From assembly GCA_030431975.1 (NCBI GenBank), contig JAUIHP010000016.1:1-64000 (forward strand): 64,000 bases of DNA, in the 5' to 3' direction. The position numbers and the translations under genes are program-made. Each line of letters opens with the position of its first letter. Within the stretch, counting starts at the first letter, position 1. Under the pieces are notes generated by a model. The model was given only the letters and a program-made list of their open reading frames with translations. It was not told where the DNA came from and searched no databases. Below, in pieces: positions 33,324-37,003 of this stretch. This stretch comes from a bacterium. Lineage in GTDB: Bacteria > Eisenbacteria > RBG-16-71-46 > CAIMUX01.

Positions 33324-34412
33324 CTAGGAGAGGGAACTCACCCAGGAGTCGGAGAAGAGGATCCCGCCGCCACCCGGGCCGATCCGGGGAAAGGGCGTGG
33401 AAACCTCGATCATCGGCGGGAGATCGGGAACCAGCGAAACCTGGACGTGCTCCCGATGGCCGGTGACGATGGCGGCACTCGCGCGCGGGGCAGCGTCCAT
33501 TCGATCCATTTCCTGCTCCGCGGCTTTCATGTGCTTGGACTCGTCCAGGGACACGACCAGCATTCCGACCGCGCAAAGGGAAAGGGCGAGCGGGCCGAGC
33601 CACTGGGTCGGCTTCGTCCACGGTGAGGAGCTCCGTCGACGGTGCGTCGTCCGCCCCGCCGCTTCCATTGGATCCCATCCGGCCTCTCTGCACATCTGTC
33701 CGTAGTCGTGCAGCAAGGACTCGACACGGCGGCGCTCGGCAGCCGCGAAGAGAGGTTCATTCTTGTTCGGGCTGTGGTGCTTCATGTCATGTTCCCGCAA
33801 GTTCCCACCGCCGGGACTCGGCGGCAGGTCGTCGTCATCGTTTCGCTTCCGTTTCCCATGATTCCGTTCACGAGTTCCCGGCGCATCTTCCTGGTACTTG
33901 CGCAGAGAGGGGTGACAGCGAAGTCGTTCCAGGAGTCGCATCTTCCGAACGCGAACAGTGCTGTCGGGCAATCCGAGTTCCGAGCCGATCTCGGAGGAGT
34001 TCAGCCCCAGAAGGTCCAGTCGCAACAGCTCTGCTTCGTCGTCATCCAGCACGGCGAAGGCATCCCGCGCGAAATCGAGAAGGTAGACCCGGTCCTCCGA
34101 TGTGGCCCTGGGGCAGGCCAAGGACAAACCGTCCAGGGTTTCAGATGCCGGGTTTCTCCTGCGCACGTCCCGAATCTTGTTTCGCAGCAGGAGTCCGACC
34201 ACGTCCGTCAGCCAACCGCGAACGGTCCGCTTCCGACCGGCGCGGTTCAGGATGGACTCTTCGGTCAGAATCCGGATTTCTTGGGACCGGGCTTTCTCCG
34301 CGAAGACCATCAACGCGTCTTGCGCGACCTCTTCCGCGTCTTCCCGGTTCAATCCCTTGACCCGGGCTACACGAACGAGCTCGGAGAAGTGGTCCGCGAG
34401 GCGGACGTTCAT
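33324..34412 (-). CDS. ECF-type sigma factor fused to a membrane-anchored C-terminal part
   Basis: This 362-aa protein begins with ECF sigma region 2 (LNREDAEEVAQDALMVFAEKA) and region 4 (FAVLDDDEAELLRLDLLGLNSSEIGSELGLPDSTVRVRKMRLLERL). From about residue 175 a charged linker follows, then a second part with one membrane helix (LGPLALSLCAVGMLVVSL, about residue 272) and an outer tail. The frame is open throughout, so this is one chain and not a sigma/anti-sigma gene pair. It may be a sigma factor kept at the membrane by its own tail. Another sigma-like plus membrane layout occurs at 52522-53532. Confidence 0.75.
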   Translation of the reverse strand: MNVRLADHFSELVRVARVKGLNREDAEEVAQDALMVFAEKARSQEIRILTEESILNRAGRKRTVRGWLTDVVGLLLRNKIRDVRRRNPASETLDGLSLACPRATSEDRVYLLDFARDAFAVLDDDEAELLRLDLLGLNSSEIGSELGLPDSTVRVRKMRLLERLRCHPSLRKYQEDAPGTRERNHGKRKRNDDDDLPPSPGGGNLREHDMKHHSPNKNEPLFAAAERRRVESLLHDYGQMCREAGWDPMEAAGRTTHRRRSSSPWTKPTQWLGPLALSLCAVGMLVVSLDESKHMKAAEQEMDRMDAAPRASAAIVTGHREHVQVSLVPDLPPMIEVSTPFPRIGPGGGGILFSDSWVSSLS

Positions 34413-34711: not shown

Positions 34712-35809
34712 CTATCGAAGCAGCCGGAGTCCTCGGGAAACGTCGCCGTTCGCAAACCTCACCCGGTACAGATACGCTCCGTTCGGGAGTGCCAGACCGT
34801 GTTTGTCCGTGCCGTCCCAGCGAATCGCATGTTCGCCCGCGGTCAGCGTATCGTCGACCAGCCGCCGAACTTCACGTCCCGCAACGTCGAAGATGCTCAC
34901 GATTACCGGGCCATCCTGCATGAGCTCAAAACCGATCGAAGTCACGTCCGCAACGGGATTGGGAGCGTTCTGGAACAGAACGACGCTTTGGGAGCGGGCG
35001 GGGAGATCCGTCGGTGCGTCGGCCGGAACCCCCGCTGCTTTTCCTGCATTCCAGATGTATTGATCCGAGTCTCTTTGGACCCACGCCACGATGGTCAGAT
35101 TGTCGGCTACCCAGGTTGGATCAAGATCGAAGTCCAGGTCGATAGTTTGCACCTCCTGGCTCTGTGAGGCGGTCAGAGGAGTGTCGGGAAGGACCTTCCG
35201 GACGATGTAGTCCCACTCGTCCTGTCCTTCCGGATCGCAACAGGCGATGATGTCGTCCTCGTAGACCAGCGCCCGGATCTGGCTTCCGGTGGGATCGATC
35301 GACTCGCCGTCACCGATCTCGATCCGAATGGAGGCCGAACCACTGCCCGTTTCGAAAGTGGCGGAGGTCACTTCGACGGAGACTTCGGACAGGTCGCGCA
35401 GTCGGTCCTCGGTCCGCTGAATGTAGGTCGCCGTCGTTCCCGGAGTGAAGCCGACCACCCGATTGCCGCCGTCAAACAGAACGGTCGGACTTCCAAGGAC
35501 GTTGTAGTAGTTGGTCCTTGCCGTGGTGTCGTCGTTTTGGAAGAGCTGAGCCGTGTGGTAGTCGACATGGATGAACTGCGGGCTGTTGTCGACCTCGATC
35601 TGGGCGAGAGCCTCCCGGGCTCCCGGACAGAACGGTCAGGTGAAGAATCCGAACTTCTCAGCCAAGACCGTACGCGGGAAGAGTTCCGCTTGGGCGGGAA
35701 GTGCGGACAACGTCAATCCAAAGGCGGTCAGGGCGGCTGCCGACCCCAGTTTCCGGACGCGGCGGAGCAACGAGCCGAGTCCGGTGACATCGGATACATT
35801 CGTTTTCAT
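34712..35809 (-). CDS. Secreted selenocysteine-containing thioredoxin-fold (Omp28-like) protein with FlgD-type sorting tail
   Basis: Read through TGA 35636-35638, this is one 365-aa frame. It has a signal peptide (ALTAFGLTLSALPAQA, about residues 25-40), then LAEKFGFFT-U58-P-F-C61-PGAREALAQIE, FIHVDYH, and NVLGSPTVLFDGG with a cis-proline, which is the thioredoxin/Omp28-like pattern with Sec at the first active-site cysteine. Residues about 285-365 are a FlgD-Ig-like sorting domain: VIVSIFDVAGREVRRLVDD, GEHAIRWDGTD, LPNGAYLYRVRFANG. It should be an exported thiol-active surface protein. The start is ATG 35809 behind GGAGG, which is buried in a palindrome. Gene callers would report only a 248-aa C-terminal piece from 35458. 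Confidence 0.85.
35606..35624 (-). promoter_or_regulatory. Candidate SECIS hairpin in the secreted selenoprotein gene
   Basis: Stem GGGAGCC/GGCTCTC (7 bp, one G-U pair) with loop CGGGA, starting 11 nt past the UGA. The second loop base is G. The spacing and loop fit the general bacterial SECIS form. Confidence 0.6.
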
Positions 35810-35833
35810 GAGTACCTCCGTCGGAGGTACTCA
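35809..35833 (-). promoter_or_regulatory. 12-bp palindrome hiding the ribosome site of the secreted selenoprotein
   Basis: Arms tgagtacctccg (35809-35820) and cggaggtactca (35822-35833) pair perfectly around one base. On the minus strand the GGAGG ribosome site lies in the 3' arm and the first base of the ATG is in the stem. The folded mRNA would block initiation. It could also be an operator for a dimeric repressor. Confidence 0.65.
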
Positions 35834-35867: not shown

Positions 35868-35935
35868 AACCCGGCCGCACCTCGAACCCGGCCGCGCTGT
35901 GAACCCGGCCGCACCTCGAACCCGGCCGCACCGTG
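35868..35935. repeat. Four tandem copies of a 17-bp unit
   Basis: Units beginning aacccggccgc at 35868, 35885, 35902 and 35919; copies 1 and 3 are identical. Non-coding, between the secreted selenoprotein gene and the MOSC gene. Confidence 0.8.
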
Positions 35936-35990
35936 AACGGTCCGCGACTCGCAGGCACGGAAGGAGTCACGAAAGATTGACGAATCGAGG

Positions 35991-36734
35991 TCAACTTGGC
36001 GTCAGGATCACATCGTCTCTCATCGCTATTGCACCGGGCTCGACGGTCGTTCCGTAGACTCCAAGGCAACCGTCTCTTTCCTCAGCCACGGTCCGGAGCA
36101 CTTGCGGAAGCCGTTCACCGGTTGCCGGGTCGATCGTGATGACCACGCAGCGTCCGTCCCGCTTGTCGACACGCATCCGGTACGCTCCAATCTGAATGGT
36201 CCTTCCGACCCAGCTATCTTCTTCGAAGGGGAGGTCGGAGATCAGGTCCACCAGAATGTTGGGACGAAACCGTTCGATCTGAAGTGGAGTACCCACCCGT
36301 ACTCCGATCTCCCGAATCGTTTGTGTCGTGATCAAGGACACCGGGAAGGTATCGAAGACGCCGCGACTCTGGCGGATGACCCGTGCCTTACTTTCAGCAA
36401 GGGCTTCGGCCAAGGCGGGGTCGGTGACGTCCATGGATCGGCCGTCGGGGGTTTGGACGACGGTGGCCGACTCATCCGGACGGGTCGGGTCGGCGAATGT
36501 CGGACGGTACTGGTTGAGGTCCCCCCGTTGTCGCAGGGTGAACCACGGGAACCCACTCTGTGGGACATCGTCTCGAACGAAGGCCCAGCGGCGATCGCCG
36601 GCCAGCCCGAACCACGAAACCTCTACCGTTTCCAGCGGCTCCGCGGCCATGGATTTGACCGGGTATCGCCACAGCCCGACCACGCTTCCAACGACTTGAG
36701 TTTCGGGAGATGACTTCTCGGTGGATTGCATCAT
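35991..36734 (-). CDS. MOSC-domain protein
   Basis: This 247-aa protein has the N-terminal MOSC-associated beta barrel (VVGLWRYPVKSMAAEPLE, LAGDRRWAFVRDD) and the MOSC domain with RFRPNILVDL, RVDKRDGRCVVITIDPATGE, which carries the cysteine thought to hold sulfur or molybdenum cofactor. MOSC proteins act in molybdenum cofactor use or N-hydroxylated substrate reduction in the cytoplasm. No molybdoenzyme gene lies next to it in this window. Confidence 0.88.
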   Translation of the reverse strand: MMQSTEKSSPETQVVGSVVGLWRYPVKSMAAEPLETVEVSWFGLAGDRRWAFVRDDVPQSGFPWFTLRQRGDLNQYRPTFADPTRPDESATVVQTPDGRSMDVTDPALAEALAESKARVIRQSRGVFDTFPVSLITTQTIREIGVRVGTPLQIERFRPNILVDLISDLPFEEDSWVGRTIQIGAYRMRVDKRDGRCVVITIDPATGERLPQVLRTVAEERDGCLGVYGTTVEPGAIAMRDDVILTPS

Positions 36735-36764: not shown

Positions 36765-37003
36765 CGGGCTTGAAGAAGGCGCCCTTGCCGAGTGAGGATA
36801 CCGCGTCGAGCGTGACGGGCGGTTGAGCCCGCTGCAGCGCCTCTCGACGGGGGCACCCCTGCGAATCGACGCGAGGTGCGTTTTAGAATTGGAACAGGTC
36901 GCGGATACCCTGGTCAAGCATCCGGGCGTGCGCCTTGCGTTACTTCCGGGTAGCCGCCGACTGAGTTGACGAACCATTCCTGGAGCGGGGCGTTCGATCG
37001 ATC

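Follow-up and report, generated by a model that had tools for sequence, protein, structure and literature searches.

A predicted selenocysteine-containing Omp28-like protein of Candidatus Eisenbacteria and its probable export by the type IX secretion system

Introduction

Can a bacterium export a protein that carries selenocysteine (Sec), and could such a protein even reach the outer face of the cell? This question is raised by a gene in the window, i.e. the whole 64,000-nucleotide stretch of DNA analysed here, in which a TGA codon lies within the frame of an Omp28-like protein that begins with a signal peptide and ends with a sorting domain. Selenocysteine is costly and easily oxidised, and its use outside the cell would therefore call for a strong advantage and for some means of preserving its reduced state. 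To our knowledge, surface or outer-membrane selenoproteins are rare in bacteria.

Layout of gene and protein

An earlier note on this DNA had described a signal peptide, an FFT-UGA-PFC motif and a FlgD-Ig domain in a single frame. Reading-frame translation together with Pfam and NCBIfam matches bears this out, and the coordinates given there are correct, with the gene lying on the minus strand. Its features are as follows.

34712-35809, minus strand: Sec-containing Omp28-like gene, 365 aa, stop codon TAG at 34712-34714
35687-35809, minus strand: signal peptide, residues 1-41, recognized by eye (RRVRK, hydrophobic stretch, cleavage AQA|E)
35636-35638, minus strand: TGA within the frame (Sec58, UPFC motif); homologues all have Sec or Cys here
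35627-35629, minus strand: Cys61, resolving residue of UxxC, nearly invariant in the alignment
35596-35634, minus strand: bacterial SECIS-like hairpin, upper stem 35605-35625, apical loop CGGGA
35486-35488, minus strand: Pro108, the putative cis-proline of a thioredoxin fold
35039-35674, minus strand: thioredoxin-like/Omp28 domain, residues 46-257, by profile matches
34715-34963, minus strand: FlgD-Ig/T9SS type A C-terminal sorting domain, residues 283-365, by profile matches

The ATG is preceded by a Shine-Dalgarno-like GGAGGT, and the motif around Sec58 reads E-K-F-G-F-F-T-U-P-F-C-P-G-A-R. Read on the plus strand, 34712-35809 has no meaning. In the thioredoxin-like/Omp28 part, NCBIfam NF045500 (Omp28-related selenoprotein, Omp28_seleno) matches with 44.2 bits (E 1.6e-11; curated cut-off of 200 bits not reached), and Pfam PF11551 (Omp28) matches residues 99-257 with 31.1 bits, just below its gathering cut-off of 34.9. 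The thioredoxin-like fold with a cis-proline that had been proposed earlier is supported by these profile matches and by invariant residues, as P108 is found in 29/29 aligned sequences. At the C-terminus, Pfam FlgD_ig matches residues 302-355 with 40.7 bits (cut-off 27), and the T9SS type A sorting domain model TIGR04183 is reached with 23.6 bits at a cut-off of 23, a margin of 0.6 bit. Near residue 190, within the Omp28 part, there is a vicinal Cys-Cys pair (ACCDPEG); such pairs (ACCDPEG, WCCGYGG etc.) also occur in the Sec members L003, L025, L050 and L101 and are absent in most others.

Decoding of UGA-58

The earlier note had proposed to see whether Cys or UGA stands at residue 58 in homologues. 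A search of the phylum with NF045500 gave matches in 14 of 47 genomes, many of the matches containing one TGA; the curated cut-off (200 bits) was reached by no genome of this 47-genome sample. From the ORFs of the phylum, 36 distinct domains could be collected, and the column in question turned out to be conserved, with UGA in 25 and a Cys codon in 11 domains. Each Sec domain contains exactly one in-frame UGA and none contains a second TGA. A chance UGA is thus excluded, since the column is Sec or Cys in 36/36 domains with a single UGA per Sec domain. The region ahead of the UGA (35638) aligns with the N-terminus of the family.

The genome itself contains four Sec copies, namely the window gene, L001 (contig C33), L003/L028 (C10) and L050 (C17), and all three paralogues have the UGA at the same column as the window gene. 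The paralogue on C33 matches PF11551 with 46.5 bits. In a tree that was built without the Sec/Cys site, at least five Sec/Cys switches are needed, of which well-supported branches make three unavoidable, and the window gene groups closely with L001 and L065 in a small clade. A contig scan with a six-sequence alignment found four loci, all from Ca. Eisenbacteria, and the relatives are named Candidatus Eisenbacteria in public records, all of them being metagenome-assembled. Tandem neighbouring Omp28 genes occur in L115 (G010:C172) and L105 (G008:C143), and in case of L115 one copy is a Sec form and the adjoining copy a Cys form. In one Cys member, L103 (G006:C534), the second Cys of the motif is missing (WCANG), and this site may therefore have lost its function.

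The machinery for Sec incorporation, which the earlier note had recommended to look for, is present in full in the source genome (6.19 Mb, 97% complete): SelA (494 bits), SelB (366 bits), tRNA-Sec (SelC; UCA anticodon, 70.7 bits) and SelD (373 bits), the last of these itself containing an in-frame UGA. An in-frame UGA alone would also be compatible with an organism-wide code change by which UGA is read as a standard amino acid. TGA, however, is an ordinary stop in the window, as it terminates 10 of the 40 called ORFs, no other UGA is found within the Omp28 domains, and the Sec machinery is there, which together leaves a code change with a negligible probability.

A hairpin behind the UGA

Most Sec members share GCCCGGUGCGGGC, which codes for A-R-C-G-L, after the UGA, with the loop of the resulting hairpin about 20 nt from the UGA. 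In an explicit pair count over 21 Sec sequences, 85.7% of the cells of the 5-bp stem are paired, versus 21-68% for slid versions, and at one stem pair six of these sequences have a compensatory C-G to G-C change; as the sequences are related, these counts do not represent independent events. Codon usage points in the same direction. The Arg codon at Sec+7 supplies the GGU loop of the hairpin, and it is CGG in 17/20 Sec forms versus 78/279 of the Arg codons found elsewhere in these domains (p=5e-7), a bias that favours this loop. L047 uses AGG and L043 has Trp (TGG) in place of this Arg codon, and GGU is kept in both, whereas the two Cys forms with Arg at this position use CGC and have lost the GGU loop. 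While most relatives have GGU, the clade of the window gene has other loops (CGGGA, CGUGC, CGUGA), with CGGGA in the window gene itself.

The hairpin of the window gene is strong (-21 to -25 kcal/mol) and only moderately better than shuffled versions (z -1.98; 11/200 equally good). Behind UGA the mean folding energy is lower than behind Cys codons (p=0.02). As one control offset, however, was equally low in this GC-rich DNA, folding energy alone is not relied on. RNAalifold recovered only two pairs from the 21-sequence alignment, and a search of Rfam for a known SECIS family gave no match.

Could the UGA nevertheless be a real stop in a pseudogene or decaying gene that yields no more than a peptide of 57 residues or a 248-aa protein from an internal start? 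Standard ORF calling at the locus indeed returns only an internal GTG ORF (34712-35458, 248 aa), but codon 58 is the sole in-frame stop ahead of the TAG, and nothing else interrupts the 365-codon frame. In addition, the same UGA is kept in three paralogues as well as in many relatives, the only replacement seen being Cys, and the conserved hairpin, the codon bias and the complete Sec machinery also argue against a stop, which makes this reading very improbable. Sec coding is thus well supported by computation, and UGA-58 almost certainly encodes a selenocysteine that would be inserted by SelB and tRNA-Sec, aided by the hairpin just downstream.

Export and the type IX secretion system

The signal peptide is expected to take the protein across the inner membrane. 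For the outer membrane, a type IX secretion system (T9SS) is the candidate route. SprA is found in the genome with 490 bits, together with neighbours, and two PorU sortases with 540 and 456 bits, all over cut-off; a PorV-like gene (107.9 bits, below the curated cut-off) lies about 3 kb away from one of the PorU genes. TIGR04183 finds at least 150 tails over cut-off in the genome, whereas in 14 control genomes the tail model matches in two and is over cut-off in one. A plasmid search returned tail matches only. The tail of the window protein also matches the sorting domain that PorU carries. Both the sorting tail and the presence of a T9SS are thus well supported computationally. The earlier note had claimed that a Sec protein passes the inner and perhaps the outer membrane, and this is strengthened by the T9SS of the genome, with the outer-membrane step being deduced from sequence. 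T9SS-mediated outer-membrane passage is the best inference in view of the TIGR04183 and PorU-tail matches and of SprA, PorU, the PorV-like gene and at least 150 tails in one genome. In such a pathway, the T9SS would read the FlgD-Ig tail and carry the protein through the outer membrane, and PorU would probably trim and anchor it.

FlgD-Ig folds occur outside T9SS cargo as well. A true selenoprotein could therefore in principle stay in the periplasm or at the inner face of the outer membrane, with the FlgD-Ig domain serving a structural purpose and not as a signal for the T9SS. It would agree with such a location that the best PDB match of these FlgD-type Ig folds is flagellar FlgD, and that L001, one of the Sec paralogues, lacks a tail altogether, from which it follows that the tail is not essential to the function of the domain. 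The translocon and sortase genes, the abundance of tails over the T9SS cut-off and the match of the window tail to PorU's own sorting domain nevertheless speak for T9SS export, and we regard retention on the inner side of the outer membrane as quite unlikely.

Relation to known proteins and likely function

The Sec-Omp28 family as such is already known. GOS_C, a Sec thioredoxin-like family with UxxC, was predicted from marine metagenomes by Zhang and Gladyshev in 2008 (PMC2398784), and a 2026 review ties it to NF045500 (PMC13188914). With this family our protein shares the Omp28/thioredoxin-like domain, a UxxC motif with Sec in first position, Sec/Cys exchange and a SECIS-like element, and the NF045500 model is matched by 29/29 aligned members. 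In case of the window protein, the matched part of the model is 39-263 of 377; other matches of the phylum have calcium-binding-type repeats in model part 273-310, which are absent in the window protein. The passages on the family in PMC2398784 and PMC13188914 mention neither a sorting tail nor a T9SS. A table of the review contains a few outer-membrane selenoproteins, e.g. a TonB-dependent receptor and an MtrB/PioB-type barrel (PMC13188914).

Also known is HBP35 of Porphyromonas gingivalis, a thioredoxin with the same layout that has Cys and is exported by the T9SS. When the family profile was compared with solved structures, HBP35 came out best (5y1a, E 1.5e-8), followed by archaeal thioredoxins and Omp28 (2r2c). 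HBP35 has a thioredoxin activity that depends on two active-site cysteines (PMC2907840), and the Por secretion system, i.e. the T9SS, carries it to the surface (PMC3120885). Like the window protein, it combines a thioredoxin-like site with a further domain and a T9SS C-terminal domain, but it has Cys-x-x-Cys instead of Sec, is distant in sequence, and hemin binding is a feature of HBP35. P. gingivalis Omp28 (PF11551, 2r2c) aligns over the part C-terminal to the thioredoxin part; in comparison with it, the window protein, which taken alone is under the Pfam cut-off, has Sec and a sorting tail.

By analogy with the thioredoxin activity and Por-dependent surface transport of HBP35, the most likely function is that of a surface thiol/selenol-disulfide oxidoreductase, in which the Sec-x-x-Cys site of the thioredoxin/Omp28 domain would act much as the Cys protein HBP35 does; redox direction, partners and substrates are likewise matters of inference. 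As HBP35, the nearest solved relative, binds hemin besides having thioredoxin activity (PMC2907840), one might instead think of a protein that mainly binds heme, a metal or a metalloid at the surface and is no disulfide oxidoreductase. However, a UxxC site, an invariant proline and exchange of Sec with Cys are all typical of redox enzymes, and since a truncated 27-kDa form of HBP35 bound hemin too, the whole of HBP35 may not be needed for this binding (PMC2907840). A mainly binding role thus appears unlikely. As a whole, we give the explanation that this is a T9SS-exported selenoprotein of Ca. Eisenbacteria acting as surface thiol/selenol oxidoreductase a probability of about 80%.

We found no open-access paper that joins selenoproteins with Omp28 or with type IX secretion. 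As GOS_C/NF045500 had been predicted earlier and no such paper on Sec-Omp28 with T9SS was found, the novelty lies in combination and multiplication: Sec-Omp28 domains are joined to T9SS tails and occur as many paralogues in one uncultured phylum, Ca. Eisenbacteria.

Genomic neighbourhood

A perfect 12-bp inverted repeat (TGAGTACCTCCG / CGGAGGTACTCA, 1 nt between) at 35809-35833 covers the Shine-Dalgarno sequence GGAGGT as well as the first nucleotide of the ATG. It could hide the ribosome site or act as an operator; the three Sec paralogues have no such repeat in front of them. The stretch that separates the selenoprotein gene from an upstream MOSC-domain gene (35991-36734) contains about four copies of 17-nt tandem repeats of the AACCCGGCCGCACCTCG type (35868-35952), and just upstream of the MOSC-domain gene an SAH riboswitch match is found at 36770-36851 on the minus strand (39.1 bits, gathering 37). 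Downstream of the selenoprotein gene and on the same strand lies an ECF-sigma-like gene (33324-34412) with weak family scores.

On contig C30 of genome G005, which contains the nearest relative of the window gene, the gene just upstream of this relative encodes an exported peroxiredoxin-like protein with an in-frame TGA (GGW-U-PYC; L110:2771-3397). The genome of the window has a peroxiredoxin-like homologue with TGA elsewhere (G000:C47:30846-31454, L120), with no Omp28 gene adjoining it in the flank examined. The pairing provides a lead, drawn from gene context, that Sec-Omp28 and the peroxiredoxin-like protein may share a peroxide or disulfide chemistry outside the cytoplasm. One could go further and imagine an extracellular selenium redox system of Ca. 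Eisenbacteria, composed of multiplied T9SS-exported Sec-thioredoxin/Omp28 proteins and an exported Sec peroxiredoxin-like enzyme; we consider this possible but tentative, and doubt prevails. If it were true, selenoenzymes would act on the outer cell surface.

Implications

As ordinary ORF calling cuts genes at UGA, Sec-Omp28 proteins are easily mis-annotated in these genomes. The family represents a natural series of Sec/Cys switches within one architecture, and it offers a test of the ability of the T9SS to carry Sec proteins. If the protein is indeed exported, selenium chemistry would take place on the cell surface, a location from which few bacterial selenoproteins have been described.
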